The notes below the pieces were generated by a model. The model was not told the DNA's origin. It did no database searches and saw only the letters and a list, made by a program, of their open reading frames with translations. 64,000 nt of DNA from Methanomicrobiales archaeon. GTDB lineage: Archaea > Halobacteriota > Methanomicrobia > Methanomicrobiales > Methanospirillaceae. Within the stretch, counting starts at the first letter, position 1. Each line of letters begins with the position of its first letter. Both the position numbers and the translations under genes were made by a program. The stretch is taken from contig JAAYCY010000055.1 in assembly GCA_012729535.1 (NCBI GenBank), positions 1 through 64,000 on the forward strand, read 5' to 3'. Of the stretch, positions 3,862 through 33,442 are shown in pieces.

Positions 3862-6800
3862 TTAATGCTGTTGAAATCTGAATAATCCTTGAGGCACAAC
3901 AATTTCAAATCGTGCTCCTTTCCCTTTTTTTCCTGTTTCACGAATCTCTAGTCCGGTGATTGAAAGAAGCTCTCTTACCAGATACAGCCCCATCCCGTAA
4001 TTTTTTCCATACCCATGTTCAAAAATTTTCTCCTTATCTTTTTCCTCAATTCCTATCCCGTCATCTGAATAGACAACCACGATGTTTTTGCCTTTTTTTT
4101 CTGTTGTAATTCTGATGGCAGAGATAGTGGTGCCATGCCTGACAGAGTTTTCAAATAAGGTGGAAAAGACCTTCTGGATAATGGGATCTGCAAAAATCTC
4201 AATTTCAGGAGAGATTGAAATTTCAGCGGTGATATCTCCTAAGTGAACACCAGATCTCGCTGTATTTACAATCGAGATCAGGTGCATCCACCGGCTTGAG
4301 AGAGATCCGAAATCCTCACATTCTCTGGTAAATTCTATGGTATTCTTAAGCGTCTCCCCGGCTGTAAGGGCGTTGGTGATGAATTTCTCTTGTTCTCGTG
4401 TCAAATCCGAGTCAAGTACCAAATCCAGTGATACCGTGATGATGTTTAAATCATTGATTATATCATGCCTGGTTATTCCGGTGAGAATTTTGAGTTTTTG
4501 CAGGGCTTCCATGAGAGAATATTCAAGTCGTTTCCGCTCACTAATGTCCCGAATAATGATGAGATCTACCGGAGCACCATGATAAAAAATCAATGCTCCA
4601 TTTACCTCAACTGGAATTTCTGATTGATCTTTTCGAAGCAGATTGGTTTCAAACATCCTTGGTAATGATTCTCCTGCCAGTCTTTTACGGATAATTTCTG
4701 CCACCGCTTCCTGTTTATCAGGAGGGAAAAGAGTCCGGAAATCACGTCCGGTAAGGTCATTAATCGTGTACCCGGTCATTCGTGCAAACGATTCATTTAA
4801 TAATACCAGGTGGGAGTCCTGAACAATGACAATACCGTCCAGGGCCTGCTCAACGACATTGCGGTATTTCTCCTCACTTTCTTTCAGAGCGATCTCATTC
4901 TGTTTTCGCCCTGTTATATCACGGATAGTGCTAATTAGAAATGACTGGTTCTCCAGGGCTAATGTTTCAGCTGAAATTGATACAATAAAGGGTTTTCCTG
5001 ATTTTGAATGAGTAATCATTTCAAACCCTTTTACTTGCCCATGTTTTTTAATCAGATCAATAAATTGTTCCCTTTTTTCCTGTGAACTCCATATATCAAG
5101 TTCTATTGTATTCTTACCGATCAATTCCTCATAAGAATATTCCATGTTCAGGGATAATGCATCATTTACTTCAATGATTTTCCCACTTTCAAGGTCTGAA
5201 ATGATGATGGCATCCGGACTGGAACGGAATAATGTTGAATACTTCTCCTTGGATAACCTGAGAGCCTTTTCTGTCTCTTTTAGTTCGGTGATGTCCCTGA
5301 TGGATTCTATGGCACCAACCACGTTCCCTTCTGCATCGGTGAGAGGGGTAGTCATCCCCCAGAGGACTATTTCCATACCTTTTGGTCGTGCATTCGTTGT
5401 TTCAGCAACCAGAATTCTCCCCTCGTGCCGAATGGACTGGTACTTCTGCTCTACCAGTTCGGAAGGCTTAAGTGAGAGATCAATGAGAAGGGGTCTCCGC
5501 TCGCCATAAAAGGGGATGGCATATTCATAATCTCCTTTTCCCAGCATATCTTCTGCTAATACCCCGGTCATCTCCTCCATGGTCCGGTTCCATGCAATCA
5601 CCTTTCCATCGGAATCGATAGCAAAGGTGGCATCAGGTAAAAAGTTGATGATATCAGATTCACGCCGTTTTAAATCCAGAATTCTCTCTTCTGCCTTTTT
5701 CTGTTCGGTAATATCTGAAAAGATCCCAAGGAGATAGAACTGCCCATCCAGTTCCAGGATTGAAGAATGGATTTTTACTGGAAAATTGCTCCTGTCCTTT
5801 CGTATTACTGGTATATCCTGGTATGATTCTAAAAAACCCGATGCCATCTGATCAAATATTTTACTGATACGGGGATAATCATCAGCGGGATGGATATCCT
5901 GAACTGTCATCCCGACAAGTTCATCACCGGTATATCCCAGCATCCTGCAGATTGCTTCATTTGCAAAGGTTAATCGCCGGGTTTTCCCGTCTGCCATGAG
6001 GATTCCGTAGGGAATTTTCTCAAGTAATGTCCGAACCCGCAGTTCTGAAGCCTCGAGTGCTTTTTTAGCCTTCTTATTGGTGGTAATATCAGTCCCGATT
6101 TCCATTCTGACAATTCTTCCGTCGCTCCACCTGATCGCCCTGTCCCGACAGTCATACCATCTCCCGGTCACGGGACTTTGAAACTCCCATTGGTACAATC
6201 CGGTCGGACCGTTTTCATCCACCAGAAGATGGTTGGTACAGAAAGGACAGGGACTATCCCGGCCATTTTGCATGTAAAAGTAACATTTTTGTCCGAATAT
6301 TGGCCCTAAATTAGTTTTCAATGATTTATTTGCATATAATATCTCATAGGTATCCATATCTGCAACATAAATCAGGACATCCATACTATCGAGAATGGCA
6401 TAGAGTTGTGCCTGTACTTCTTCAATGAGTATTTCTTTCTTATTTGCTAAAGATCCGGACTTTTCAGTTAGGATTTGACCTTGAGTATCCTTGCTATTCA
6501 TTTCCCCGGACCTGGTATCCTTTCTGACTGAAACTTCGATATTATAGTGTTTCCGGATCATATTCAGGACTTTTTCAGACTCGAGCCATCGTTTATCCAG
6601 CTGAGTGACCAGTTTATCAATCCGGCCTACCTCATTATCGATAATATCGGCAGTCACCGGATCATCAAGCATAGATGCAGTAGCCATGATTATTGCAAGC
6701 GGATTTCTTATCTTGTCATTGAGAATTGCAAGAATCGCCAGATTTTTTTGAATCTGTTTTAATGCACTGTCTTTTTCACGCTCAAGCTGGTTCTTTTCGG

Positions 6801-8949
6801 TGACATCATAGCCCTGGGCGATAGTGGCGAGGGGTGTCTGACCATCTGCAGTGTATAGTGTAGCAGAATTCCAAAGCAGTGTCCTGGTGGTACCATCACT
6901 CCGGATAACGTTTATCTCAGTAGTTTCCCATCGTACACCGTCCAGGGTTGTGTGTAAGAGCCTCATGGTTCTGTCAGCGGTGTCCGGGGGAAACAGAATT
7001 CGTATTGACTTTCCAATCATCTCTTCTGCAGATCTTCCAATGAGGAGTTCAAAAGACCTGTTTACTCGTTTGATATGAAATAAGGGATCCCAGATAATGA
7101 TGGGGACATTTGCATATGTAATTAGGTTTTCAAGATATTCATTTGTCTCCCTGAGACTTACCTTGGAAGTTTTCAATGCTTCATTCTGGTTTTTTAACTC
7201 CTGTTCAGTCAGCATTAACTGTTCGTTCACGTCATTGAGTTCTGCATTGCTCTCTTTGATAGTTGTAATAAGACGTTCACGTTCTATCTCTGCCTGTTTG
7301 CGTTCAGTAATGTCCTGGACAGTTCCAAGGGATGACAGTGGATTCCCAAAAGCGTCATACTTTGTTTCGCATCGTTCAAGAACAAATTTTATTCTGCCAT
7401 CCGGTAGAAGAAGACGATGCTCAATCTGGTAGGGAGTTTTCTCTTTTAACGAAGTTGAATAGGCCTCATCTACTGCTTTTTGATCATCAGGATGTATGGC
7501 ATTTAAAAAAGCCTCATATGATGCACCAAATTCCAGTGGATTAATTTCAAAAATTTCAAAGATGACATCAGACCATGATAGATAGTTTGAAGGAATGTCC
7601 AGTTCCCAGCTGCCTGTCTTTGCAAGATGTTGCGCTTCATTCAGGCGGCGTTCGCTCTTTTGTAATGCTTCTTCAAATAACCTGCGTTCGGTGACTTCCC
7701 TACTCACCCCGATGAGAACATCCTGGTCATCCCATCGTCCCCTGGTAATTTTTGTATCTACCTCGATACGGGTACCATCCTTTGAAATTATTGGGATGGA
7801 ATTATCCTTCCCTGTTCCATCGACCATATTATCATAGAATAAGAGTGCTTCTTCTCTTTTACCGGGATCCAGAATGTCAAGAATACTCCTGCCGATGAGT
7901 TGCTTTTTTGAATAGGATAATCTCTCCTCTGCAGCGGTATTCATGGTGAGGATATCTCCTTTCAGGTCGATAACAAAGACAATATCATCGATAGACTGAA
8001 ACAGAGTTCTGATATTTTGTGCACTCTTCTGTTTTTCTTCTTCGGCACGAAGTCGCTCGATAGTACTCCCAAGTTCTCTGCTTATTGAGATGAGTGTCTC
8101 CTTTTCATCATCACTGATAATATACCGACTCATACTGGCAATATTTAATACCCCGATGGCTCTTCCTTCTGAAATGAGTGGGAGCGTTGTAATTGAGCAT
8201 AATCCATATTTCTGTGAACGTTCCGGGCTTACCTGGGCATAATTTTCGATAAAAAGCGGTTGGTTTCTAACAAACATCGTGTTATAAGGCTCTTTATCGA
8301 TTGAAACGTTATCGACTTCGGAAATGAACCCGGAAGGGAGATTTTGTGAATGAACAATATGAGCAGTCCGGGAATCAGGGTCGACGAAATATATTCCTCC
8401 TGCATCAAAGTTTAAGAGATGTATTGATTTATCCAAGATCTTTACCAGGAGATCTGAGAGATTTTCTGCATTATTTACCTCGGAAATAATCTCATTGAGG
8501 ATCCCAAGCATTGCTGAACGGTGCTTTAGTGCCTCTACCTCGGAGTTGAGATTATCCAGTCTGATTTCCGGGTGATTTCTCTGTACTAATTGTTTGATTT
8601 TCCGTGCCAGTAAAGAGAACCTGAACTCCTCATCCCCCTCTTTCCAGGGGAAAATATCGGCATCATTTTGGAATACTAAAAGGAGGTCTTCCTTATCATC
8701 AGTACTTGTTAGAAGGATGAATGGGATAATACCCGACTCTTCCCTGACCGCTCGTAAAAAGGCAATTCCATCTATCCCAGGTTTAGAAAATCCGGATATG
8801 ATTATATCATATGCATGATGGTGTAATTTTTCCAGGCCTTCATGTATCGATGAACAGGTATCAACAGAGAATTCACCCTGTTGCTCCAGGATTTTTTTGC
8901 CTAAACGGAGCAGGCCGACGTTATCATCTGCATAGATAATGGAAATCAT
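3862..8949 (-). CDS. Giant fused sensor kinase with degenerate receiver (pseudoREC-GAF-PAS3-pseudoDHp-PAS5-HK)
   Basis: 1695 aa, soluble. An N-terminal receiver-like domain (1-120) keeps the acidic pair DD8-9 and a Lys near 100, but the phosphoacceptor position is Gly53 (ISGFSKPGIDG where paralogs read SDxxMP). Then come a GAF domain (about 150-300) and PAS1-3 (about 312-720). Next is a DHp-like helical segment with LNDKIRNPL in which Asp745 replaces the usual His. Then PAS4-8 (about 835-1465), the true DHp TRHDIIND with His1495, and HATPase_c (LFENSVRHG, DDGIGI, YGMGLYLV). PAS4 carries a Cys-rich motif ending CPFC. The layout looks like two sensor proteins joined end to end at about residue 800-830. 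PAS3 plus the pseudo-DHp resemble the C-terminus of the membrane protein at 23004-26099. ATP-dependent autophosphorylation on His1495 is expected; phosphorylation of its own receiver is not. Confidence 0.92.
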   Translation of the reverse strand: MISIIYADDNVGLLRLGKKILEQQGEFSVDTCSSIHEGLEKLHHHAYDIIISGFSKPGIDGIAFLRAVREESGIIPFILLTSTDDKEDLLLVFQNDADIFPWKEGDEEFRFSLLARKIKQLVQRNHPEIRLDNLNSEVEALKHRSAMLGILNEIISEVNNAENLSDLLVKILDKSIHLLNFDAGGIYFVDPDSRTAHIVHSQNLPSGFISEVDNVSIDKEPYNTMFVRNQPLFIENYAQVSPERSQKYGLCSITTLPLISEGRAIGVLNIASMSRYIISDDEKETLISISRELGSTIERLRAEEEKQKSAQNIRTLFQSIDDIVFVIDLKGDILTMNTAAEERLSYSKKQLIGRSILDILDPGKREEALLFYDNMVDGTGKDNSIPIISKDGTRIEVDTKITRGRWDDQDVLIGVSREVTERRLFEEALQKSERRLNEAQHLAKTGSWELDIPSNYLSWSDVIFEIFEINPLEFGASYEAFLNAIHPDDQKAVDEAYSTSLKEKTPYQIEHRLLLPDGRIKFVLERCETKYDAFGNPLSSLGTVQDITERKQAEIERERLITTIKESNAELNDVNEQLMLTEQELKNQNEALKTSKVSLRETNEYLENLITYANVPIIIWDPLFHIKRVNRSFELLIGRSAEEMIGKSIRILFPPDTADRTMRLLHTTLDGVRWETTEINVIRSDGTTRTLLWNSATLYTADGQTPLATIAQGYDVTEKNQLEREKDSALKQIQKNLAILAILNDKIRNPLAIIMATASMLDDPVTADIIDNEVGRIDKLVTQLDKRWLESEKVLNMIRKHYNIEVSVRKDTRSGEMNSKDTQGQILTEKSGSLANKKEILIEEVQAQLYAILDSMDVLIYVADMDTYEILYANKSLKTNLGPIFGQKCYFYMQNGRDSPCPFCTNHLLVDENGPTGLYQWEFQSPVTGRWYDCRDRAIRWSDGRIVRMEIGTDITTNKKAKKALEASELRVRTLLEKIPYGILMADGKTRRLTFANEAICRMLGYTGDELVGMTVQDIHPADDYPRISKIFDQMASGFLESYQDIPVIRKDRSNFPVKIHSSILELDGQFYLLGIFSDITEQKKAEERILDLKRRESDIINFLPDATFAIDSDGKVIAWNRTMEEMTGVLAEDMLGKGDYEYAIPFYGERRPLLIDLSLKPSELVEQKYQSIRHEGRILVAETTNARPKGMEIVLWGMTTPLTDAEGNVVGAIESIRDITELKETEKALRLSKEKYSTLFRSSPDAIIISDLESGKIIEVNDALSLNMEYSYEELIGKNTIELDIWSSQEKREQFIDLIKKHGQVKGFEMITHSKSGKPFIVSISAETLALENQSFLISTIRDITGRKQNEIALKESEEKYRNVVEQALDGIVIVQDSHLVLLNESFARMTGYTINDLTGRDFRTLFPPDKQEAVAEIIRKRLAGESLPRMFETNLLRKDQSEIPVEVNGALIFYHGAPVDLIIIRDISERKRLEYSLMEALQKLKILTGITRHDIINDLNIITVSLDLVLDSDLTREQEKFITNALTAGETLKNTIEFTRECEDFGSLSSRWMHLISIVNTARSGVHLGDITAEISISPEIEIFADPIIQKVFSTLFENSVRHGTTISAIRITTEKKGKNIVVVYSDDGIGIEEKDKEKIFEHGYGKNYGMGLYLVRELLSITGLEIRETGKKGKGARFEIVVPQGLFRFQQH

Positions 8950-19692: not shown

Positions 19693-22600
19693 TCAGGATT
19701 CTATCCGGTATGATTCCCGGGGAATCCTTATCTCAAATCTGGCTCCGAATCTTGGTTTTCCGTTCTCAATAATCGTAATATCAGTCAGGGACAAAATCTC
19801 CCGTACCAGGAACATGCCAAGTCCGGTATTCTTCCCATACCCACGTTCGAAGATCTTTTCTTTTTCGTCATCGGGAATTCCGGTTCCGTTATCCTCCCAT
19901 ATCAAAACCAGATCTTCACCTTCTTTCTGGGCTGATACCCGTATTTCAGAGACTCTTTCCCCGTGCCGGATGGAGTTATCAAGCAGGTTGAAGAAAACTT
20001 TTTCCAGCATCGGATCCGCATAGATAGAAATCCCATGGATATCCGAAGTGATTCTGATATCATCAGGAGGATGCAGGAAGGAAAGAGTTGATTCGACAAC
20101 CGCCCATTGTGGGTTTTGGGATCCTATCGTCTCGTATATCCTGGTAAATTCAATCTGGGACTGAATCTCCTCGGTTGCAGATTTCATGACTCTGAAAGAT
20201 TCGAGCAGTGTTTCGCTCGTAATCTGCGACTCCACTATTCCAAGATATGCATAAATGATACCAATCTTATTGAGGATATCATGCCTTGTTATTCCCGTGA
20301 GCAGACCTAGCTGCCGGTTTGCTTTCTTCAAAGCATCTTCGGTTCGTTTACGTTCATCGATGTCATGTGATATTCCCTGGATAAGAACTACGTTACCCTG
20401 AGCATCTAAAATTGGAGAATAACTTAAGGAATGCCACCGCCATGAACCGTTTTTATGGAGCAGCCGACATTCAACGGTGCCATAATTTTTTTCCTCGATC
20501 ACCTTTTTTCTGACAAAAACAACGATTCGGGTATTATCATCAGGATGGATAAAAAGTGATGCGTGATTCCCAATTACTTCATTATTTTCATATCCAAACA
20601 ATTCGGTCCATTTTTCAGGGATGTAGGTAATAATACCATTCGGTGTTATTGAAAAGACAATATCGTTGGCATTCTCCACGAACGATCTGAATTTTTCCTC
20701 ACTCTTTCGAAGGAGTCTTTCTGCCTGTTTTCTTTTACTTATGTCTCTTGTTACTCCGACAAATCCGGAGAAATTTTTATTGGTATCAAAAGCCGTTGAC
20801 ATTATCATCTCGGCCCAGACAGGTGTTCCCTTCTTCCTTTTGAATTCCAGTTCCAGGACTACTCTTTGCTTAAGAGGCTTTCCTGATTTACTCAGCGCAA
20901 TCCCCTGATTTTGGATATTTTTAAATGTCTGCCATGAAGCCGGAGTTAAAAAATCTTCAACTCCCATCTCCAATGCTTCTTCCTGTGTGAAACCAAGACC
21001 CCGGGTGATGGATGGGGAGATATAGGTAAGATGCATATCCTTATCTGATGTCCAGATAACATCATGGATATTTTCTGCAAGCAGCCGGTATTTCTCTTCA
21101 CTTTCAAAGAGGGCGGCTTTAATCTCTTTCACTGAGGTAATAACCCGCATAGAGACCTGGACACCGGTCATGTTATCCTGGTGGACAATGGGTGTCGCAT
21201 AGAGGTTGACAAATACAGATTTTCCTGATTTTGTCTGTATTCTAATATTTACATCCTCTACTGCTTCTTTTCTCTGCAAGGTGTGGAAAATCCTTTTAAA
21301 TTCGGCAATATCTGAAGGAAAGAGTAAAGATCCGGCATAATCACTTGATTTTCCAACCATTTCCTGTGATGTATATCCGGTAATAGTGAGAATTGACGGG
21401 GAGATATACGTTGCACAGAGATTGTTATCGAGGAGAATTATCAGATCAGAAGATCGTTCAGCTATTAATCTGAAACGTTCCTCAGACTCCCGTAGTGCCT
21501 GTATCATGACAGATCGCTCAGTCACATCACTTGTAATACCCCTGAATCCTGTCCGGTTTCCGTCAATATCCTCAAGGGGAAATGATCTGATATTAAGAAT
21601 CCGCTGACTTCCATCCTTATGAACAGCAGGTATTTCAAAGGTGAGCAGCCCTGGTTTTCTTACCATCCCTTCCCGAAGAACACCCGTCATTACTTCCCTC
21701 CCTTTTGGAGTCAGAATGAGTCCCAGGTTTTTCCCAACCAGTTCTTCTGGAGAATATCCAATGATAGCACTACACTGGGGACTTATATACGTAAAAACTC
21801 CATCAGGGTTCATATCCCAGATTATATCCGGAGATGTCTCTACAATCGACCTGAATTTTTTTTCACTCTCCTGGAGTGATTCCTGCAATATCCTGAGTTC
21901 ATCATACCGCTGGCGTAACTCATCCTCAGTTCCGGCAATCTGTTCATATGCAGCGAGAAGATCATTGTGAACACGCTCCTGCTCAGAATAATCAAAAAAT
22001 GTTTCAAGGAGGCACTGTCTACCCTGAAAGGTAAAAGGAGCAACGGATTTTATTATGGGAATAAGTGTCCCATCAGCGGTGATAAGCGTTCGTTTTGAGT
22101 GATCTACCATCTGATGCAGAGAGCTTACCGGGCATTTCCCTTCTTCTTCAGGACAGAGAAACGAATAGCAGGGACGATTGATAATATTGCTTTTTTTTGC
22201 CCCGATAAGGTCTTCTGCTGCAGGATTCACGTCCAGGATCTCATGTTTGTAAGCATCGATAATGGCGATACCTTCTTTAACCGATGAGAATATCTTGTCC
22301 AGATAATCGCTTTTTTCTTTAAGCTCATCAATTGCTTTCCTTCGTTCAACTGCTTTCAAGATCTTATCGGAGAGCTCGGCAAATTGTGTCTGTGTTTCTC
22401 CTCTTTTCTGGATGTAGAAATCAACACCGCTCTCGAGAGCTGTGATAACAACCTCCTCTCTTCCTTTTCCCGTAAGAAGGATGAAAGGAATGTTTTGATA
22501 CTGCTTTCGTACCTGCTGGAGAAATTCCAGCCCGTCCATACCTGGCATCTGATAATCTGAGACGATGGCATCATAAGAGTGAAGTCGGGGTGATTTAAGG

Positions 22601-22770
22601 GCTTTTTTTGCAGAGGTTAACGTATCAACCCGGATCTCTCCTGTTTGCTCCAGGAAGTGTTTTCCAATCTCGAGATGATCCTCATCATCATCCACATAGA
22701 GGATTGAGATAGGAAAAGCTCTCTGAGGCTGTATCCCTGCTTCATTCTCCTGAGTATTCGTATGTGGCAC
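19693..22770 (-). CDS. Receiver-first multi-PAS histidine kinase (REC-PAS5-HK)
   Basis: 1025 aa, soluble. Receiver about 20-137 with DDD27-29, Asp72 (VSDYQMPGMDG) and Lys at YIQK. PAS1 (about 150-270) carries a Cys pattern (PCYSFLC then KCPV), suggesting metal or redox chemistry or merely structure. A coiled-coil linker precedes PAS2-PAS5 (about 310-800). DHp TRHDILNK with His830. HATPase_c has FFNLLDNSIRHG, EDNGTGIP and NTGLGMFLVREIL. The last PAS and kinase core are close to the truncated kinase at the left edge of the window. PAS3 resembles PAS4 of the 63276 kinase. It is divergent from the membrane PAS protein at 23004. The receiver begins near residue 20, so a shorter start cannot be excluded, but ATG 22770 is the only clear one. 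Confidence 0.93.
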   Translation of the reverse strand: MPHTNTQENEAGIQPQRAFPISILYVDDDEDHLEIGKHFLEQTGEIRVDTLTSAKKALKSPRLHSYDAIVSDYQMPGMDGLEFLQQVRKQYQNIPFILLTGKGREEVVITALESGVDFYIQKRGETQTQFAELSDKILKAVERRKAIDELKEKSDYLDKIFSSVKEGIAIIDAYKHEILDVNPAAEDLIGAKKSNIINRPCYSFLCPEEEGKCPVSSLHQMVDHSKRTLITADGTLIPIIKSVAPFTFQGRQCLLETFFDYSEQERVHNDLLAAYEQIAGTEDELRQRYDELRILQESLQESEKKFRSIVETSPDIIWDMNPDGVFTYISPQCSAIIGYSPEELVGKNLGLILTPKGREVMTGVLREGMVRKPGLLTFEIPAVHKDGSQRILNIRSFPLEDIDGNRTGFRGITSDVTERSVMIQALRESEERFRLIAERSSDLIILLDNNLCATYISPSILTITGYTSQEMVGKSSDYAGSLLFPSDIAEFKRIFHTLQRKEAVEDVNIRIQTKSGKSVFVNLYATPIVHQDNMTGVQVSMRVITSVKEIKAALFESEEKYRLLAENIHDVIWTSDKDMHLTYISPSITRGLGFTQEEALEMGVEDFLTPASWQTFKNIQNQGIALSKSGKPLKQRVVLELEFKRKKGTPVWAEMIMSTAFDTNKNFSGFVGVTRDISKRKQAERLLRKSEEKFRSFVENANDIVFSITPNGIITYIPEKWTELFGYENNEVIGNHASLFIHPDDNTRIVVFVRKKVIEEKNYGTVECRLLHKNGSWRWHSLSYSPILDAQGNVVLIQGISHDIDERKRTEDALKKANRQLGLLTGITRHDILNKIGIIYAYLGIVESQITSETLLESFRVMKSATEEIQSQIEFTRIYETIGSQNPQWAVVESTLSFLHPPDDIRITSDIHGISIYADPMLEKVFFNLLDNSIRHGERVSEIRVSAQKEGEDLVLIWEDNGTGIPDDEKEKIFERGYGKNTGLGMFLVREILSLTDITIIENGKPRFGARFEIRIPRESYRIES

Positions 22771-22846
22771 CGTCCCTAAAAAAAATGTTCTGTTTTCTGA
22801 TATCTTTTTTCTGAATTGATTTTCTGGATTGATATCCTTTTTGACT

Positions 22847-22862
22847 CTGTTTTAATTAAAAG
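22847..22862 (+). promoter_or_regulatory. Candidate TATA box for the membrane PAS protein
   Basis: An AT-rich TTTTAATTAAAAG run lies in the 233-base gap between the divergent kinase (22770, minus) and the preferred ATG 23004 of the membrane protein. A TATA box here would place the transcript start near 22885, giving a leader of about 120 bases. This argues against the longer frame that begins at TTG 22872. Confidence 0.35.
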
Positions 22863-23003
22863 ATTTCGCCATTGTATATTCCATGTGTAGTAACAATTCA
22901 TTCAACCTCCGGGCCATCTGAATCTTATCCTTATCCACACCGCAACATTAAAAAATCTTGTCGTAAGACTATACCACATTGCTGTTCTGATCAGGACTAC
23001 AAT

Positions 23004-26000
23004 ATGGAACTATCAATATCTTCAAGGCAGGTTTCCAGGGGATGTGGGATAGCAATCACTCTCTTTGGCATCTATGGTATTATCGGGTCTATTATCAGTT
23101 CCAGCATGGTCGCCCTGTATCAGGGATCATATGTTCCGGTTTCACCAATCAGTCCGATTCTTTTTATTTTCCTTGGAGTTGCCCTGATTGTTTCAGACCT
23201 TCATTATCCTGCGGTAAAACCATACTCTCTCATTATTTCTATCATCACTATCCTGATGGGAATTAATTATCTTGCTGAATCAGGTGGAGGTATTAACACC
23301 GGTTTTCATTCAACCCTCCTGACCTTATTTCCTTCAGTTATTGTTGAGAAAGCAGGAATGATGTCACCTGTCTCTGCCTTAAGCTTTATTTTCATTGGGA
23401 TTTCTGCTTTCTCTCTCATAAAAGGGTATAACACCTATGGAGGACTGCCGGCAACCATCGTTCTTGCAATAAGCAGTACATTCATTTTTGGTTATATCTT
23501 TGGTTCTCCCCTTATGCACCAAAGCTCCTTCATTCCGGTGTCTCTTCCCTCTGCAATTGGATTCATTCTCCTGTCAGTCGGATATATAACACAGGCAGGA
23601 ACAAACTTTCCGCCTCTTTCCCTTTTTTCTGGTGAATCCTCCCGGGCAATCCTGATGAGATACCTGCTTCCGGTAATCATCTGCCTCGTCATTAGTTTAA
23701 AATTTATAGATCATCTCATTACTGAATCATTCCAGTTGAATCCAGCGATAATGGTTTCAATTGAGGTCCTGATAGCCCTTGTCATCATCACTGCCGTAGT
23801 GATTATTCTTTCAGCAACTCTGGGAAGAAGGCTTGATACTATCAATGTATCACTTGTTGAGAGTGAGGAGAAGTTTCGAACCCTGTTTGATATGGCTCCA
23901 ATAGCTTGTTCTGTCATGAACACTCAGGAGGATCTCATCCTGATTAACAAATACCTGGAAAACATGACTGGCTATTCGTCTTCTGAAATTCTTGGGAGGC
24001 GGGGCGATGAAGTAGGGCTTTTTTCTTCAGATGAGCGAATCCATCTTTCGGAAAAATTAAAGAAGCAGGGATATCTCAGGGATGAAGAGATTACCGTTCT
24101 CACTCGTCTGGGAGAGGTAAGAAGTCAATTGGCATCTTCTTCCCTGGTAATGCTACAGGGAGAACGCCATATTCTCTCGACCATGGTCGATATAACCGAC
24201 AGGAGAAGAATGGAAGATGATCTCAGAAAAACAAAAGACCAGGTAACCGGTATTGCAGAAACTATACCCGGTGTTGTATTCCAGTTCTATGCGAAAAATT
24301 CTGGAGAAATGGGTCTTTCCTATGTGAGTAAAAGGGCTTTTGAAATCTTTGGTGAACAAGGGGATCTCTCATCTTTTCTACAGAAACTTATCTCCGGCCT
24401 GGTTCCAGATGACCGGGAACCTTTTCTTGCATCAATAAATCAGGCGATAAAAGAGGAAACCAGATGGTATTTTGAAGGAAGGTTTGTAAAACCATCAGGA
24501 GATCTTCTGTATTTCCGTGGGGTTTCAGCGCCAGTACGGGAAGGGGATGAACTGGTTTTCAGCGGGGTTATCCTGGATATTACCGGTCAAAAAGAAACGG
24601 AATCTGCTCTTCTCGAAAGTGAAAGAGCATATCGTGAACTATTTAATAATTCAATACTGGGAATTTTCCGGATTACAGCAGAAGGAGAATTCATCAATCT
24701 GAATCCGGCGTTTGCCCGTATGTATGGATATGACTCTACAGAGGATATGAAAAGAGAATTAAAGTGTTTTGGCGAGTCACAGTATTTAGTTCCTGATGAA
24801 TGGAGAACAATACGGGATATTCTTGCCCGTGACGGAGAGATTCAGAAATATGAATGTGAACACCGGCGAAAGGATGGGAGTAATCTCTGGGTTTCTATCA
24901 ATGCAAAGGTAATCCGCAATGATTCAGGGGACCTTCAATATGTTGAAGGGACGGTTGAAGATATTACCAAGAGAAAATTTGCCGAATCTGAACTTATCCG
25001 GAAACAGAATGAACTGCGGGCAGCATATCTGCAACTTGCAGGAGTGGAGGAAGAGCTGAGGCATCAATATTCCGAGATAGTAGATGCTCAAAATGAGATT
25101 GAAAAGAGAGAGAAGAAATTTCGCCAGCTTTTTGAAGCAAATATTGCCGGCATTGTCCTGCACGAGATAATAACCGATGAATCCGGCATTCCCTGTGACT
25201 ATCGCTATCTTGATGCCAACTCCGCATTCGAACGGATTACCGGGCATTCTTTCGCTGATATCGCCCTAAAGACTATCCGTGAAGTGAAACCTGACTGTGA
25301 TCCTGAATGGATAAAAAAATACGGAAAGGTAGCCCTTACCGGTGAACCGATTCATTTTGAGAGTTATGATGTAAACAAGGAATTGTATTTTGATGTGAAT
25401 GTATATTCTCCAGAGAAAGGACAGTTTGCCACGGTCTTCCTTGACATGACTGCAAGAAAACTGGCCGAAAATGCCATCAGCGAGACAAACGCATACCTGG
25501 AAAACCTCATCTCCAATGCATTCGGTCCGATTATGGTCTGGGATAATGACTTTATCATCACCCGGATCAACCGTTCCTGCGAGAATCTCCTTGGAAAAGG
25601 TGCAGATTCATTAATTAGTAAAAACCTATTAGATCTCCTGTCTGCTGATCAGGCAGAGGCCCTGATACAGAAGATAAATCTCTTCCCTGATCACAGGGTT
25701 CGGGATACGATTGAACTCAAGATGGAGCATCAGGATGGGACTACCCGTACGGTTGTATGGAGTATGTCAACGATTATGGACCCGAACAAAGAATATCCGG
25801 TGGCGACGATTGCCCAGGGATGGGATGTTACCTCTGAAAGAGAATTAGAAAAAGAGCGGGTTATGGCTATCGAGAAGATCAATGAAAACATTGCAAAAAT
25901 CGCCATCCTGAACGATGGAATCCGAAATCCTCTCAGCATTATGGCATGTATTATTGATTCAACAGATGATCCTGAAATCATGAAATTACTCAACAATGAG

Positions 26001-26099
26001 ATACAACGGATAGATCAGATGGTTACCAATCTTGATATCGAGTGGATTAATTCTGAAAAGGTACTCAACTTTCTCAGAAGGCATGATTATGGACATTAA
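23004..26099 (+). CDS. Membrane multi-PAS sensor ending in a His-less DHp-like segment, no ATPase domain
   Basis: 1031 aa from ATG 23004. The frame extends to TTG 22872, but those 44 codons lack protein character and may precede transcription. The N-terminal 260 residues form about eight hydrophobic helices with a VSPISPILFIFLG motif, like integral sensing regions of other methanogen PAS proteins. PAS1-PAS5 follow (about 275-910), with a coiled coil between PAS3 and PAS4. The protein ends with a helical segment carrying LNDGIRNPL, where Asp971 stands at the position of the phosphoacceptor His (compare SHELRTPL), then MVTNLDIEWINSEKVLNFL and a stop. There is no HATPase_c domain, so it cannot be an autonomous kinase. 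PAS5 and the tail resemble residues 600-800 of the 1695-aa protein. It could be a dimerising sensor that acts on another kinase. Confidence 0.9.
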   Translation: MELSISSRQVSRGCGIAITLFGIYGIIGSIISSSMVALYQGSYVPVSPISPILFIFLGVALIVSDLHYPAVKPYSLIISIITILMGINYLAESGGGINTGFHSTLLTLFPSVIVEKAGMMSPVSALSFIFIGISAFSLIKGYNTYGGLPATIVLAISSTFIFGYIFGSPLMHQSSFIPVSLPSAIGFILLSVGYITQAGTNFPPLSLFSGESSRAILMRYLLPVIICLVISLKFIDHLITESFQLNPAIMVSIEVLIALVIITAVVIILSATLGRRLDTINVSLVESEEKFRTLFDMAPIACSVMNTQEDLILINKYLENMTGYSSSEILGRRGDEVGLFSSDERIHLSEKLKKQGYLRDEEITVLTRLGEVRSQLASSSLVMLQGERHILSTMVDITDRRRMEDDLRKTKDQVTGIAETIPGVVFQFYAKNSGEMGLSYVSKRAFEIFGEQGDLSSFLQKLISGLVPDDREPFLASINQAIKEETRWYFEGRFVKPSGDLLYFRGVSAPVREGDELVFSGVILDITGQKETESALLESERAYRELFNNSILGIFRITAEGEFINLNPAFARMYGYDSTEDMKRELKCFGESQYLVPDEWRTIRDILARDGEIQKYECEHRRKDGSNLWVSINAKVIRNDSGDLQYVEGTVEDITKRKFAESELIRKQNELRAAYLQLAGVEEELRHQYSEIVDAQNEIEKREKKFRQLFEANIAGIVLHEIITDESGIPCDYRYLDANSAFERITGHSFADIALKTIREVKPDCDPEWIKKYGKVALTGEPIHFESYDVNKELYFDVNVYSPEKGQFATVFLDMTARKLAENAISETNAYLENLISNAFGPIMVWDNDFIITRINRSCENLLGKGADSLISKNLLDLLSADQAEALIQKINLFPDHRVRDTIELKMEHQDGTTRTVVWSMSTIMDPNKEYPVATIAQGWDVTSERELEKERVMAIEKINENIAKIAILNDGIRNPLSIMACIIDSTDDPEIMKLLNNEIQRIDQMVTNLDIEWINSEKVLNFLRRHDYGH

Positions 26100-26239
26100 A
26101 AGGGCTGAAACCAGGATAATACCTGTTCGTTCTTTTCCATGACGGTATCATTGCCCCGGTTAAACTCCAGTGTTGATTCACTTAATTCCTCTGTCAAGAG
26201 GTCTAAAGCGTCTTTACCACGGAGACAGATTTTAGGCAC
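26096..26239 (-). CDS. Possible small protein or gene remnant, 47 aa
   Basis: GTG start at 26239, TAA at 26096-26098, overlapping the end of the convergent membrane PAS gene by 4 bases. The translation is balanced and helix-like (core ALDLLTEELSESTLEFN, C-terminus VLSWFQPF). GGAG lies 17 bases upstream, too far for a normal ribosome site. Directly upstream the same strand stays open in another frame, so this may be the 3' end of a decayed gene. Unrecognised. Confidence 0.3.
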   Translation of the reverse strand: MPKICLRGKDALDLLTEELSESTLEFNRGNDTVMEKNEQVLSWFQPF

Positions 26240-26685
26240 ATTTTATGGATTAAATCTCCATATTCTGTAAAATTCGCAGGCTGTATGATAATACAGGAAC
26301 GATCACTGGTGTATGGGAGTATAATACCAATATAAACACACCATGAGGTTTTGCAGAATACCTTAATATTTTTGGATTTACGCCTGTTGCAGGAGATTAT
26401 TTGAGGAAAAATTTATTATCAATTCCTGATCGTGATTTAGTTTGTCATGCATTCGTGGATCTGATTGAACATGATACATTGAGATATTACCTTTTTTCTA
26501 AAACCCTGCTGATGGATCTAAATACTTGTATTCAATCACAGGCAATATGTGAACAGAACAGAGAGAAAAAACCATCCGTCTTCTCGATTATTCAGGTTAA
26601 TACAAGGTTGAGATCTCCAACCCGGATATTTGATCTTACCCTGGGGGAAACTGCGGTCACCTATACCTCTTTGTATCTCACATAT
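26240..26685. other. Probable eroded coding DNA upstream of the MerR gene
   Basis: 446 bases. The plus-strand frame that runs into the MerR gene reads protein-like from about 26225 to 26540, interrupted by one TGA near 26343 (segments RLYDNTGTITGVWEYN and GFAEYLNIFGFTPVAGDYL). It then loses protein character before the MerR start. The family is not recognised. The minus strand is also partly open. The segment is best read as the remnant of a lost gene, not as the N-terminus of the regulator. Confidence 0.35.
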
Positions 26686-27525
26686 ATGAGTAACACTATG
26701 ATCCAGGATAAGATTCCGATTGGCCGGTTTTCAATGATCACCCGGCTGACCTGTAAGGCACTTCGTCTCTATGACGAAACCGGTCTTCTTTCGCCAGCAG
26801 CTAAGGACAGGTTTACCGGATACCGGTATTATCAGCTCTCACAGATTGAGCGGGGTGTATTGATTCGGTCCCTTGTTGACCTTGGTTTCCCCCTTGCCCG
26901 GATTAGCGAGATGATAGATGCAAAATCCAGTGGTGATAGTAAGAAAATGTGTCAACTCCTTGAAGATCAACGGCAACGGGTTTCTTCAGAGATCGAGCGG
27001 TTACGATCCATAGACCGACTTTTAGAGCGTCAACAAAAGGAGATGTTTTCAATGATTATTGCAGAACCAAAATTCAAAGATATTGAACCTCTTCGTGTCC
27101 TTTCTATCAGGGATAAAGGAGAATATGGAGAGACTATTACCCGGCTCATTTCCCGTTTGTGTGAATTTTTAGGTTCACCTGATGTCCGGAACACCCAGGT
27201 TTCGGTAACCGGCCCTGTTATGACTATCTATCATGATGGTGAATATCGGGAATTTGATGCAGATGTTGAGGTTGCAGTTCCGGTTACCGGGAGACTTCCA
27301 GACCATATCCCGGGTATTGAGGTTAAAACGATTCCGGGAGGCAGATTTGCATCTGCAATCCACAAAGGGCCATACCAGGATGTTCATGAATCCTGGGGTA
27401 AATTGTTTGAGTGGACAGTAAACCAGGGTTATGAACCAAAAACACCGTGCAGGGATAATTACCTGAATGATCCAAATGATGTTATGGAAGAGGAGTTGCT
27501 GACCGAGTTACTCATTCCGGTATAA
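26686..27525 (+). CDS. MerR-family transcriptional regulator with GyrI-like effector domain
   Basis: About 279 aa from ATG 26686 (ATG 26698 is equally possible). The open frame reaches back to 26401, but the added 95 residues do not belong to the family. The winged-helix MerR domain (IGRFSMITRLTCKALRLYDE, then TGYRYYQ) covers about 10-80. A dimerisation coiled coil (RQRVSSEIERLRSIDRLLERQ) is next. A C-terminal GyrI/BmrR-type ligand pocket (about 120-279) contains VEVAVPV and AIHKGPYQDVHESW. Proteins of this kind bind promoter spacers and respond to hydrophobic compounds. No adjacent efflux gene is seen, so the target is unknown. It is followed by a weak hairpin and T-run. Confidence 0.88.
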   Translation: MSNTMIQDKIPIGRFSMITRLTCKALRLYDETGLLSPAAKDRFTGYRYYQLSQIERGVLIRSLVDLGFPLARISEMIDAKSSGDSKKMCQLLEDQRQRVSSEIERLRSIDRLLERQQKEMFSMIIAEPKFKDIEPLRVLSIRDKGEYGETITRLISRLCEFLGSPDVRNTQVSVTGPVMTIYHDGEYREFDADVEVAVPVTGRLPDHIPGIEVKTIPGGRFASAIHKGPYQDVHESWGKLFEWTVNQGYEPKTPCRDNYLNDPNDVMEEELLTELLIPV

Positions 27526-27552
27526 ATCTATGCGATTTTGGATGCCTATCGT

Positions 27553-27592
27553 CATCGTATGGACGACGATGTGGTAATCTTAATTCTTTTTT
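27553..27592 (+). terminator. Candidate terminator after the MerR gene
   Basis: A 6-bp stem (CATCGT/ACGATG, loop of 7) at 27553-27571 is followed 14 bases later by a run of six T. In archaea the T-run alone can stop transcription. The stem is short, so this is a weak call. Confidence 0.35.
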
Positions 27593-28030
27593 CCACGAAC
27601 ATTTAGTATTATTCCCGTGATTGAAAAAATTAGTTTTGGACTTTTTCTCATTACTGAGAAATGATACTCCATCCGGATAAATATTAGAAAAGAATTGATA
27701 GTTTTTTTCGAATTTATATATGCAGGAATTCAGATTGGTATATAATTATGAAAGAGGCCTTTTGTGCGGGTTTTGAAGAAAGAGTTAAATATCCTGTTTA
27801 ACAGCCTACGCATGAAGAAGAAACTAAAAAAAAATCACCTGAACTACCTGAAATTTTTATCTATTATTACTTTTAAGGCAAAAATATCCGATTTTATACT
27901 TGTAAGTGCGATAATGGCAAATCCGGAGGGAGATGGAAGGTTCAGTTTACATTTTTTTAAAATATCCGGCCTCTTGGAAGATATAATTACTCCCCTGGGT
28001 TATCTGGCCGGACGGCTGGAACGCCGGGGT
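27593..28030. other. Intergenic region with TATA-like runs, no convincing gene
   Basis: Plus-strand AT boxes TTTATATATG (about 27711) and GGTATATAATTATG (about 27735) precede a 17-codon frame starting ATG 27748. That frame continues protein-like after its TAA, which suggests an eroded gene. The longer plus-strand frame at 27764-28117 lies opposite the better supported minus-strand 58-aa gene and is not accepted. Confidence 0.35.
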
Positions 28031-28207
28031 TTAGATGATACAATCAATTATTTCGTGTGCTCGTTCAGTCTGCCCTTTCTTATAGAATTTTTTGGCATTC
28101 TGAATCCATCCGTTTAACTCGGCACACCGGGCATCATTCGTTCCCTCATATGTTTTAGCAATCTCAGTTGCCTTTTTTATTTTGTCTTTAAACTTTATCT
28201 CACTCAT
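28031..28207 (-). CDS. Small helical protein, 58 aa
   Basis: ATG 28207, TAA at 28031-28033. A strong TATA box (TATAAATATA, minus strand, 28264-28273) would start the RNA near 28242. The leader contains GGAGGAG, but 22 bases before the ATG, which is unusually far. The product is charged and predicted all-helical, with segments KDKIKKATEIAKTYEG, CAELNGWIQNAKKFYKK and ERAHEIIDCII and two Cys. It looks like two or three short helices in a TPR-like pair. It has no known family. It is the best small-gene candidate in this region. Confidence 0.55.
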   Translation of the reverse strand: MSEIKFKDKIKKATEIAKTYEGTNDARCAELNGWIQNAKKFYKKGQTERAHEIIDCII

Positions 28208-28682
28208 GTCTGCTATTACGTGTTATTGCTCCTCCTAAAGAAAACCTTCTAAAAAAATGCCTCTATATTTATAGTTTTTTATTATTGCTATGAAAATTTA
28301 GTTGTATTGGTGCCATAATGTTAACCGCTTAGAGTGTTACATGGTATACTCGCATCTATGAATATGGTTTAGAGCAAAGAATATCCCGGATTAATTCTGA
28401 CTTCCCTGGTGTGTATACTACTTTGAAAAACTCTGGAAGGATGTAGAAAGAATCTATCAGAGTCAATTGACAGGTGGCTGATTATCCGTTTACGCCTTGG
28501 CATGCGTATTCATCCGGTTCAGGGAGTTAGGTATTGAATAAATCCATCCCGTTGATGTCCATGCCAGAGTATGGATTAAAGCCTAAAAATAGGATGAACT
28601 TTGTAAAACGTAATAGATTGGGATTTTACGGTTCATTTCAAGGATGAAAAGAAAACCATCTCAATTAATTGTCACAAAATCA
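28208..28682. other. Intergenic region, possible eroded gene on the plus strand
   Basis: 475 bases. One plus-strand frame reads protein-like for about 110 codons (about 28312-28650) with four in-frame stops (segments RIYEYGLEQRISRINSDFPG and PEYGLKPKNRMNFVKRNRLG). This suggests a degraded coding sequence of unknown family. The promoter of the 58-aa minus-strand gene lies at 28264-28273. Confidence 0.3.
28264..28273 (-). promoter_or_regulatory. TATA box of the 58-aa gene
   Basis: Minus-strand TATAAATATA, centred about 61 bases before the ATG at 28207. It matches the archaeal TATA consensus well and predicts a leader of about 35 bases. Confidence 0.55.
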
Positions 28683-29408
28683 TCATGATTTCTTTCTCTT
28701 TTTCTTAACCGGTGTAGAAGATTCTGTTACACTGAGTTTGCACGATTCACCGTCTTTGATGTTCATGTTCCCTTCATCCTTCACTGGTGCAAGGGCCGGA
28801 GTAATAAAACGGAAGAATTCATTGGTAAACTGTTCAAATCTAAATCCTTCTGCCTCAATTACAAGTTTCCATTTCTGTTCCATGGAAAGGATGTTCATAA
28901 AGGAGATCATGAGGTACATCGAGGTCAGGAATGGGTCTAAATCAGACCTGATTGTTCCATCTTCTATTCCCTCCTGTATGGCATCCTGCAGAATAAGACG
29001 ACAGGTGCCATATCCCTTTCCAATCTCTGCAGTATACGGATTTTCTTTTGAAAACCGTTCGGAACCGTAAAAGTGAATCATGCGAAGATAGTCAGGATAT
29101 TCCTGAGCGAACTGGTAATAAGCCTGGCCCATGAGGGTAACTTTAACAATTCCAAAAACCTCCTTTTCCATGCACTCCGTGTATTTTTCCTTCAGTATTT
29201 TTATGCCCCGGAGCACGATGCTGGCGTATAGTGCCTCCTTATTTTTAAAATACAGGTAAATGGTGGCTTTATTCAGTTCTACCTCCCTGGCAATCTCATC
29301 CATGACAACTGCTTCATAACTCCGGGAAAAAAAGAGACGCTCAGCTGCATCAAGTATCTCTGTCCTTCTTTTCTCTTTCTCCCGTTGTCTTCGCTCAGAT
29401 ATTCCCAT
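28683..29408 (-). CDS. TetR/AcrR-family transcriptional repressor
   Basis: 241 aa from ATG 29408. The frame reaches ATG 29438, but the shorter start is preferred because its first residues (MGISERRQREKEKRR) align with those of the paralog at 41761 (MTISERKEREKELRR), and the longer one overlaps nudC. The helix-turn-helix (ILDAAERLFFSRSYEAVVMD through TIYLYFKNKEALY) covers about 18-65. The rest is an all-helical ligand-binding and dimerisation domain with a basic tail (KKKRKKS). It is the last gene of an operon with an EFR1 flavodoxin-ferredoxin and nudC, with 8 bases between nudC stop and this start. It probably represses that operon by binding dyads at about 31189-31259. Confidence 0.92.
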   Translation of the reverse strand: MGISERRQREKEKRRTEILDAAERLFFSRSYEAVVMDEIAREVELNKATIYLYFKNKEALYASIVLRGIKILKEKYTECMEKEVFGIVKVTLMGQAYYQFAQEYPDYLRMIHFYGSERFSKENPYTAEIGKGYGTCRLILQDAIQEGIEDGTIRSDLDPFLTSMYLMISFMNILSMEQKWKLVIEAEGFRFEQFTNEFFRFITPALAPVKDEGNMNIKDGESCKLSVTESSTPVKKKRKKS

Positions 29409-29416
29409 AAATGTTT

Positions 29417-30259
29417 TCAGATCTCCCTTTGAATCCATGCCTCAATGAGTAAACCGCTGATACTCGCATTTTTGGGGTGGGAAGGCAGGTTATCACGCGT
29501 AAACCAGCCTGCCTCGATTATTTCCTGGTTATCAATCTGGATCTCTCCCCCGGCATAGTCTGCAACAAACCCTACCATGAGCGAATCAGGAAACGGCCAG
29601 GGTTCACTTCCGAAGTACCGCAAATTCCTGACCGTGATGCCAACTTCCTCTCCTACTTCCCGGTGGACTGTCTGCTCAAGGTTCTCACCCGGTTCATTAA
29701 AACCGGCAAGAATCGAAAAAAAGTCTGAAGGAAACCGGGGTGAGCGGGCCAGCAGAATTTCCTCACCTTTTTTTATTAATACAATAATTGCAGGAGAGAT
29801 CCGGGGATACACAATTCTGCTGCATTCTGTGCATATCCTGGCCCGTTCGGTTGTAAGCGGACGGGTTTTAGCACCACAACTCCCACAAAAGGAATGTGAC
29901 CGGTCAAAGTCCAGGATTCGCACCGCATAGGCGGCAATAGCCATGTCAGTATCCAAAACCTGTCCTGAAAGTTCCCTTACCGGTGAAAGTTCCCATCCGT
30001 CAGGCAATATGGCGTTATCCTCAATTTTTCCTGCATAATAGACTATTTCGTCCCTGATGCCTAGGTATACCGGATCACCTGCTATCAGGCCGCAGGGAAG
30101 AGGTTCCTGCATTATAACGGTTCCGGACTTTGCTTTTTTAAAAAAAAATACTGAATTGCCACTGACCAGGATCCAGCGTTTTTGTGCGGGTGATGGATTT
30201 TCAGGTTCAGGGTATATTGGGAGGAGAGGTCTGACTGAATAAAACGGACAATACTCCAT
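29417..30259 (-). CDS. nudC: NADH pyrophosphatase (NudC-type Nudix hydrolase)
   Basis: 280 aa. The enzyme cleaves NAD(H) to NMN(H) and AMP, and some members remove NAD caps from RNA. The Zn ribbon has the Cys pairs CGSCG and CTEC (about 122-143). The Nudix box GFNEPGENLEQTVHREVGEE plus VGI (about 190-212) fits GX5EX7REUXEEXGU. The NADH-family signature is SEPWPFPDS (family form SQPWPFPxS). Length and order agree with the family. It sits between an EFR1 ferredoxin gene (58 bases upstream) and tetR (8 bases downstream), so nicotinamide turnover is linked to a redox operon. GGAG lies 11 bases before ATG 30259. Confidence 0.94.
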   Translation of the reverse strand: MEYCPFYSVRPLLPIYPEPENPSPAQKRWILVSGNSVFFFKKAKSGTVIMQEPLPCGLIAGDPVYLGIRDEIVYYAGKIEDNAILPDGWELSPVRELSGQVLDTDMAIAAYAVRILDFDRSHSFCGSCGAKTRPLTTERARICTECSRIVYPRISPAIIVLIKKGEEILLARSPRFPSDFFSILAGFNEPGENLEQTVHREVGEEVGITVRNLRYFGSEPWPFPDSLMVGFVADYAGGEIQIDNQEIIEAGWFTRDNLPSHPKNASISGLLIEAWIQREI

Positions 30260-30317
30260 ATGATTAGTCTTCTCCAGTATTGGTTATAGTATCTGGTTTG
30301 CCTGATTTTGATGTGTA

Positions 30318-31112
30318 TTACAGGTAGTATTCCGGCATTTTCTGTTCTGCATATAACGTGTGCAACCTGACTGAAGCATCCTGCACCGGCCCGGGTTTCA
30401 TAGTTCTTGCATTCTCCGGACAGTTTTTGATACAGGCACAACAGGTGATACATTTATCTTTTTCAATATTTGCACTGTTTTCTGAATCAATCGCACCGGT
30501 TGGACATATTTCTGCACAATGCCCACACGAGGTACATGAATCATCGATGGCGATAAAATCAACAACCCATAATTTTGGATCTCCTCTATAGGGATATTCA
30601 CCAGGCACCTGCAGATCAGACACTACAGTACCTGATGAAACAGACTCTAGTTTTCCACGTATCTTCCGCCCAAATTCCTTTGCATGCTCCAGATCATCGG
30701 CGTTGGGACGTCCGGCTGCAGTTGGTGTTTGGGAGGAAGAAAATGAGTGTTCCCCGATATATGCTCCTCCGGCAACTGGAATGCCCCCACATTGGAGCAC
30801 AATATTTCTGAGTTCAAGTAAAGCATCTTCAAAGGTCCGGTTGCCATAAACAACCACACAGACTACCAGAGTATTTTGCAATCTCATTGCATGCAGCCAT
30901 TCTGTAATAAGTGCCGGGACTCGTCCCATGTATACCGGAACACCGATAACCAGTAATTCATCTTCTGAAGTTTGTAATGGTTTTTTTCTGGCTTCCGGCA
31001 CGGTAATGTCTATCCATTCCGTGGTATCCGGTTTTATTCCTTGCTCAATACCGTTAAGAACCGCTTTTGTTGTCCCCGTTGGAGAGAAAAATACAAATTT
31101 TACCTGTACCAT
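30318..31112 (-). CDS. EFR1-family flavodoxin-ferredoxin fusion
   Basis: 264 aa. The flavodoxin-like domain (about 1-165) has the FMN phosphate loop FSPTGTTK and the GVPVYMGRVP segment. The ferredoxin domain (about 180-245) has two [4Fe-4S] motifs, CTSCGHCAEICP and CITCCACIKNCP. Expected role: cytoplasmic electron transfer between FMN and ferredoxin-type partners, as in oxidative-stress flavoproteins. It is first in an operon with nudC and tetR. GGAG lies 10 bases before ATG 31112. Dyad elements upstream (31189-31259) probably bind the operon's TetR. Confidence 0.92.
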   Translation of the reverse strand: MVQVKFVFFSPTGTTKAVLNGIEQGIKPDTTEWIDITVPEARKKPLQTSEDELLVIGVPVYMGRVPALITEWLHAMRLQNTLVVCVVVYGNRTFEDALLELRNIVLQCGGIPVAGGAYIGEHSFSSSQTPTAAGRPNADDLEHAKEFGRKIRGKLESVSSGTVVSDLQVPGEYPYRGDPKLWVVDFIAIDDSCTSCGHCAEICPTGAIDSENSANIEKDKCITCCACIKNCPENARTMKPGPVQDASVRLHTLYAEQKMPEYYL

Positions 31113-31188
31113 TTTTTTTAAAACTCCGTTTTTTTAGTATGAAGCTAAACTGTTCCTTTTCTCCTGTTTCATATTCAGGATTCCAGGA

Positions 31189-31259
31189 ATTACTTTCACT
31201 AGTAATATGTTACTTTGAGTCAATATATAACTTATGGTTACTTACTAACTGCTAGTTAG
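31189..31259 (-). promoter_or_regulatory. Cluster of dyads upstream of the EFR1-nudC-tetR operon
   Basis: Three inverted repeats: ATTACT/AGTAAT (31189-31206, spacer 6), an imperfect GTTACT/AGTCAA (31209-31223, spacer 3) overlapping a minus-strand TATATA box, and CTAACT/AGTTAG (31245-31259, spacer 3). The ACT-N3-AGT core is the same as in the perfect dyad before the other TetR operon (42552-42572), suggesting operators of paralogous repressors. Confidence 0.5.
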
Positions 31260-31462
31260 AATGTTGTTGTAATGGAAGGTATTTGATATCAAAACAAGGT
31301 TTTTGGTTGTGTTTACCGATAAATCATTCTTCCCCGGAGATATTTTCAAGGGAAAAAACCTATCTCAAATCTGAATCTCATGTGGCAAACACTGCATGGA
31401 GCCCGGATGTGTGAGTTCCACTGGCCTGTCAGAATGTAATGAGATTCGTTTAAAAAAAAGAA

Positions 31463-31870: not shown

Positions 31871-31974
31871 AGGATATAATCTCTTCACCAGGTAATAATC
31901 TTTAGCAATCATTCCTGACTGGATCGATTGTCAGTGGTCAAAACCAGTATACCGTTATAGATACCAATGAATGT

Positions 31975-33267: not shown

Positions 33268-33405
33268 TCAGTCCTTGAAAAAAACCTGGTATCATCTCAT
33301 GAACCAGATAAACCAGTTCCGGGAGTTTTCTTTGGCTTTTTTTAGAAATTTTATCACTACTCTCTGTACATGAAATGTGCATATCTGTTGCCTACAAAAC
33401 AACAA

Positions 33406-33414
33406 TTTTAAATA
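33406..33414 (+). promoter_or_regulatory. TATA box of the propeller kinase
   Basis: TTTTAAATA, centred about 33 bases before ATG 33443. It predicts transcription start within about 8 bases of the start codon, so the mRNA may be nearly leaderless; no ribosome site is seen. Confidence 0.5.
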
Positions 33415-33442
33415 TTATTACTGAAGAGAAAAATCTGGTATT

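Follow-up and report, generated by a model that had tools for sequence, protein, structure and literature searches.

The window, a 64,000-nucleotide stretch from a Methanomicrobiales archaeon, encodes on its forward strand a protein of 1,031 amino acids (P0001; 23004..26099), for which a longer version starting at a TTG at 22872 is possible. The protein has a hydrophobic, membrane-type N-terminus (judged by eye), PAS domains (Pfam PAS_9, PAS_3 and PAS are matched) and a C-terminal tail of 87 residues (25836..26096, forward strand), supported by alignments, AlphaFold2 and Foldseek, that we call the pseudo-DHp (or "IRNPL") domain. The end of the translation reads KIAILNDGIRNPLSIMACIIDSTDDPEIMKLLNNEIQRIDQMVTNLDIEWINSEKVLNFLRRHDYGH, followed by the stop codon. 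Within the tail, L-N-D-G-I-R-N-P-L (25908..25934) is the equivalent of the H-box when aligned to SHDLRTPL of EnvZ, and is followed by a short turn, a second helix and the stop. Asp971 (codon 25914..25916) falls on the phospho-His position by alignment and by an H-box-blind search, Asn975 (25926..25928) on +4, the phosphatase position of HisKA, by alignment of the genome's own copies, and a second-helix signature, LDxxWxxSEKVxxFLRR (26031..26081), identified from conservation in 85 tails, lies beyond the usual HisKA end (all forward strand). Pfam HisKA scores the P0001 tail alone below threshold (E 0.1, residues 967-1017), and Pfam finds no HATPase_c domain in P0001.

Divergent from this gene, on the reverse strand, is a histidine kinase of REC-PASn type with a TRHDILNK H-box and a HATPase domain (19693..22770; HMM and open reading frames). 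The same divergent pair, a P0001-type gene and a REC-PAS kinase, is kept in Methanospirillum stamsii (locus L063), the closest named relative among the matches listed (81% over the full P0001 protein). Just downstream of the P0001 gene, an open reading frame at 26401-27525 encodes a MerR-like regulator whose C-terminal part is of effector-binding type; its real start, judged by eye, is probably well inside the listed frame. The 64-kb window is rich in two-component proteins, with nine HATPase_c domains, and several of its kinases use a TRHDI.N box instead of the classical H-box.

The original prediction described the P0001 tail as DHp-like, without the His and without an ATPase domain, and this is confirmed by the translation and by HATPase_c searches. 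It had also named the finding that would make P0001 a broken kinase, an ATPase domain in an adjacent or shifted frame; we looked for one downstream and found none in any frame. When the entire genome (3.09 Mb, 86 contigs) was searched for HATPase_c in six frames with stops tolerated, 20007-36392 of the window contig gave no match, and an ATPase HMM made from the window's own kinases, run on all open reading frames of at least 60 amino acids, gave none downstream of P0001. Because both searches were empty there, a frameshifted downstream ATPase is excluded. The tail is under purifying selection, with a dN/dS against the M. stamsii orthologue of 0.18, compared with 0.20 for the remainder of the protein.

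Eleven copies of the domain are encoded in this genome. Two had been predicted, one terminal and one internal, and both are real, but the number was an undercount. The internal copy (6547..6792, reverse strand; E 2.4e-21) lies in a protein of 1,695 amino acids (3862..8949, reverse strand) and reads ...LAILAILNDKIRNPLAIIMATASMLDDPVTADIIDNEVGRIDKLVTQLDKRWLESEKVLNMIRKHY... As predicted, it resembles the P0001 tail: AILND and EKVLN occur in each, and an 82-residue alignment of the two shows 48% identity (E 2e-21), far above chance. The architecture of this protein is REC-GAF-PASn-pseudoDHp-PASn-HATPase (HMMs; GAF by eye), and its ATPase has a separate His box (TRHDIIND), far downstream of the pseudo-DHp. 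In nine of the 11 copies the domain is C-terminal, with a short stretch after it, and in the other two it is internal to giant proteins of 1,695 and 1,805 amino acids. Both giants (window 3862-8949 and L012:3368-8785) are chimeras, with a REC-PAS-pseudoDHp unit fused to a complete PAS histidine kinase. Architectures in the genome, assigned by eye and with REC and ATPase HMMs, comprise REC-PAS-tail, REC-coil-tail and sensor-TM-PAS-tail, and one protein of the last type has an extracellular solute-binding domain (by eye and HMMs). At another locus of the same genome (L017:5052-8550, contig C25), genes for a histidine kinase, a REC-only protein and a REC-PAS-tail protein follow each other in this order with short overlaps, and likely form an operon.

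The D, I, R, N, P and L of the H-box are invariant across the 11 copies, so that Asp stands at the phospho-His position and Asn at +4 in 11/11. In a PDB profile alignment to EnvZ (nDeIRNPLtvi vs SHDLRTPLTRI), the D likewise falls on the phospho-His. Asp was also present in 88/88 sequences from a scan of genome contigs, a count that is partly by construction as the scan pattern contained Asp; the H-box columns of an alignment of 85 tails, which have zero entropy, are to be read in the same way. Because of this bias, we masked the eight H-box residues with X and searched two genomes blind to them. Every one of the 29 sequences returned has Asp (position 0), Arg (+3) and Pro (+5), and the +4 residue was Asn in 17, Gln in five and His in seven, with Gln and His confined to one methanogen genome. 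The Asp substitution is thus genuine and not an artefact of selection. In a Methanomicrobiales genome (G080; L191-L215), 12/19 tails have RQP or RHP and not RNP, always with the D kept, and by sequence appear to form a subfamily with an altered +4 residue. The acidic +1 residue of histidine kinases is not kept: this position is Gly in P0001 and variable across the family, with H, Q, K or R in the blind set and H, G, E, Q, N, K, S or T in the pattern-selected set. A shift of the phospho-His to +1 was considered and is ruled out for P0001 by its Gly, which it shares with 22 others of the 85 tails; His at +1 is inconsistent across the family (38/85), and occurs in many Methanomicrobiales and some Archaeoglobus fulgidus copies. 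By contrast, 55/59 nonredundant HATPase open reading frames at the examined loci have an upstream His box.

Kinship with DHp domains is supported by several comparisons. Pfam HisKA (PF00512) is matched by 39/69 full-length carriers, with a best E-value of 6.7e-10. EnvZ DHp leads the histidine-kinase matches in a PDB profile search (E 0.02), in which the unrelated TSG101 coiled coil scores equally. AlphaFold2 monomer models were made, that of the tail from 85 tails, and it has helices at domain residues 2-40 and 46-86 (pLDDT 86). In Foldseek the best matches of the tail alone are CpxA DHp chains (probability 0.98, TM about 0.6, E 0.24); designed hairpins also match, and no E-value for the tail alone is significant, as expected for a hairpin. 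In a model of PAS plus tail (pLDDT 87), a helix of 42 residues leads without a break from the last PAS into the first DHp helix; the model matches WalK, LOV-HK and YF1 over 207-223 columns with E-values to 5e-11, much of the score being supplied by the PAS. On these profiles and models we assign the domain as a predicted helical hairpin homologous to the HisKA, EnvZ/CpxA-type DHp, and by analogy it plausibly dimerises as a DHp-type four-helix bundle. Residues outside the H-box are also conserved (Q14, N18, I59, D60, L66, D67, W70, S73 and H83 in domain numbering; D67 in 84/85, W70 in 78/85 and S73 in 84/85 tails), and the window copy departs from this set at position 14. This conservation indicates that the second helix runs well beyond the usual DHp end and bears a motif of its own, LDxxWxES...RKH, which sets the family apart; to our knowledge, such an extension is not familiar from DHp domains.

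The original prediction suggested a motif search of Methanomicrobiales, and the tail is matched in 113/150 genomes and 32/35 genera. A search of the phylum gave strong matches in a second family, f9. DsrA was found in 5/6 sampled f9 genomes, and in one of them (G248) it is identical over 418 residues to PDB 3mm5; we therefore name that genome A. fulgidus and, from both findings, take f9 as the Archaeoglobaceae, A. fulgidus included. The Archaeoglobus copies, those of A. fulgidus among them, likewise carry Asp. Scanning the genomes of 84,980 species with a pattern containing Asp returned 229 relatives, and the 80 of these that were listed are from Methanomicrobiales or unassigned Euryarchaeota bins. 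No match to the domain was found in 72,556 plasmids. Weak haloarchaeal matches were rejected as ordinary HisKA kinases, with AHDIRNP or SHDLRNP followed by about 150-250 amino acids. The genome counts, searches and alignments thus strongly support the predicted distinct domain family, which is conserved, His-less, DHp-derived and without an ATPase of its own.

Domain content was counted with Pfam in 69 full-length carriers. PAS is found in about 60 of them, REC in 15, HAMP in nine, GAF in seven, CHASE4 in six and SBP_bac_3 in three. HATPase_c occurs in one carrier and is missing from 68/69; where carriers do contain an ATPase, a TRHDI.N-type box stands directly before it, hundreds of residues from the pseudo-DHp. 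A two-component gene adjoins 20/69 carriers, in ten cases one with HATPase (raw counts, and a weak signal), and 49/69 carriers are not beside two-component genes.

The closest published description is that of archaeal "HisKA, no HATPase" or "Nonenzymatic HK-like proteins" (Galperin et al., 2018; PMC5847659). That work places the class chiefly in Archaeoglobi and Methanomicrobia, names A. fulgidus among its carriers, reports that most members are wrongly annotated as histidine kinases, and discusses them as possible phosphoacceptors or phosphatases. Like our family, it has sensor domains and a C-terminal HisKA-like domain without HATPase in the same lineages, and going by its description the two sets are likely the same. 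Its description gives a conserved His, whereas we find Asp throughout, in A. fulgidus too, and His only inconsistently at +1. Compared with canonical HisKA DHp domains (PF00512; EnvZ, CpxA, HK853, CrdS), the pseudo-DHp shares the hairpin, the H-box pattern xRNPLxxI, the +4 Asn and the +5 Pro, but has Asp for His, has lost the +1 acid and the CA domain, and has a longer helix 2 with LDxxWxES. The spacing of an acid and an amide by four residues along a helix recalls DxxxQ of CheZ and NarX; the likeness to these and to ExxN of CheX is one of motif geometry, not homology, and the corresponding activity here is putative. DivL (PMC4211667) is likewise a DHp protein with PAS sensors and no phospho-His, and a comparable role apart from kinase activity is putative for our family; DivL differs in having Tyr and not Asp, in retaining CA, and in being a single bacterial protein and not an expanded family. 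The MA_type 2 kinases RdmS and MsmS of Methanosarcina acetivorans (PMC11784639) are also archaeal, with sensor domains and no H-box His, but they keep HATPase_c and bind and hydrolyse ATP, whereas the pseudo-DHp family is without ATPase.

Our preferred reading, drawn from sequence and analogy and given a probability of roughly 45%, is that the pseudo-DHp is a signal-controlled output domain that docks receiver domains and acts on them as a phosphatase. The domain would descend from HisKA by replacement of the phospho-His with an invariant Asp and loss of the CA/HATPase domain. Its hairpin would form a four-helix dimer, serving as the C-terminal output of sensors with PAS, GAF, CHASE4, solute-binding or receiver domains. 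Receiver domains in the kinases and REC proteins of the cell would dock on the tail and lose their phosphate depending on the sensed signal, with Asp (0) and Asn, Gln or His (+4) as the putative catalytic pair, a DxxxN/Q arrangement like the DxxxQ of CheZ or the HxxxT of bifunctional HisKA proteins. In effect, the sensor would control the switching-off of kinases whose genes lie elsewhere. Because the phospho-His is replaced by Asp and the ATP-using half is missing, carriers probably make no phosphate signals but read those of true kinases or reset them. In CrdS and HK853 the +1 acid is needed for the kinase only and the +4 N/T for the phosphatase only, His-to-Ala lowers phosphatase activity modestly in HisKA kinases, and the phosphatases CheX, CheZ and NarX use acid and amide pairs, ExxN or DxxxQ (PMC3510030). 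Neither the His nor the +1 acid nor the ATPase remains, while the acid at 0, a residue of water-positioning type at +4 and the Pro at +5 do; on the simplest reading, docking would be retained, dephosphorylation probably so, and kinase activity lost. Which H-box residues were kept and which lost fits receiver domains as the target better than it fits kinases. An acid and amide pair is present, as a motif, on the docking helix (DxxxN, sometimes DxxxQ or DxxxH), and ties to phosphotransfer come from the REC domains of 15/69 carriers, the gene order at L017 and the 20/69 carriers with a two-component neighbour.

Several points weigh against a phosphatase. Asn-to-Gln at +4 abolished the phosphatase activity of CrdS (PMC3510030), and by analogy the Gln or His at this position in 12/19 copies of one genome would count against such a role. 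In one study, the EnvZ DHp domain alone gave no phosphatase activity in human cells (PMC8971529), and in DivL, whose DHp likewise has no His, binding of the REC partner does not lead to its dephosphorylation (PMC4211667). Most carriers (49/69) are encoded away from two-component genes, and the conserved W, S and H of the second helix are left unexplained by a phosphatase role.

The main rival, doubtful but the most credible of the alternatives, takes the tail by analogy with DivL as a non-catalytic reader, which would bind REC~P and either inform another partner or protect or sequester the receiver. DivL, with Tyr for His, binds DivK~P via a response-regulator docking face and is without kinase or phosphatase activity (PMC4211667). 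Invariant D, R and P beside a free +1 and a variable +4 would suit such a binding face, and the extra helix-2 motif might be where another partner binds, but DivL retains its CA domain, which the pseudo-DHp tails lack, and the limitation of +4 to N, Q or H suggests chemistry over mere docking. That helix-2 extension, LDxxWxES..RKH, with its strong additional conservation, and the orphan status of most carrier genes are also what a general dimerisation or signalling cap with a lineage-specific partner outside two-component signalling would predict; we consider this improbable, given that the entire H-box save the His is retained and that a fifth of carriers have REC domains. The original prediction proposed that the domain might dimerise with or sequester kinases. 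In favour of mixed dimers with true histidine kinases, or their sequestering, through the DHp bundle, both partners are DHp-type bundles, the domain is joined to a full kinase in two large proteins encoded here, and the divergent kinase neighbour is conserved in M. stamsii. However, the neighbouring and fused kinases have another H-box type, TRHDI.N, which makes a shared dimer interface less likely; a bundle that merely dimerised would not account for the H-box D, R, N and P being so strongly conserved; and kinase neighbours occur at 10/69 carriers only. We rate an adaptor of this kind, sequestering included, improbable as well.

Two further readings are the least probable. A phosphoacceptor using the Asp or the +1 His, with a separate ATPase protein acting on it in trans, could appeal to the 38/85 tails with His at +1, but it is highly improbable: P0001 and 22 others have Gly there, and the ATPase-only partner proteins anticipated by the original prediction are absent from the genome, in which the shortest open frame among 73 HATPase_c matches is 270 amino acids. 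Asp-phosphate is also not known to be made by HATPase_c kinases. That P0001 is a broken or truncated histidine kinase, as HisKA homology without an ATPase might suggest, is scarcely credible and refuted for practical purposes: HATPase_c is absent downstream in every frame, the same architecture is conserved in dozens of species, and the 11 paralogues, broad conservation and purifying selection show that the family is not the product of decay.

The general class without HATPase is already known (PMC5847659). What seems new against the literature searched is the replacement of His by Asp, how widely it holds, the signature of the extended helix 2 and the functional reading to which these lead. 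Phosphoacceptance through a conserved His fails for the pseudo-DHp family because the His is Asp throughout. It is possible, and we propose it tentatively, that these proteins form a large family in archaea whose members, driven by their sensors and without using ATP, dephosphorylate or read receivers by means of a DHp with His replaced by Asp. If the tail removes or reads phosphate, many archaeal sensors would only reset or report the signals of separately encoded kinases, and signalling in these archaea would be set by dedicated off-switch sensors as much as by kinases.

Carriers reach up to about twenty copies per genome. At two loci, L133:2575-8088 and L142:4600-12189, two and three carrier genes, respectively, are clustered on one strand, which suggests local duplication. 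Short carrier open reading frames of about 120-150 amino acids, with little beyond the tail, occur in other genomes (L121, L143 and L171), and may be fragments or genuine short proteins.
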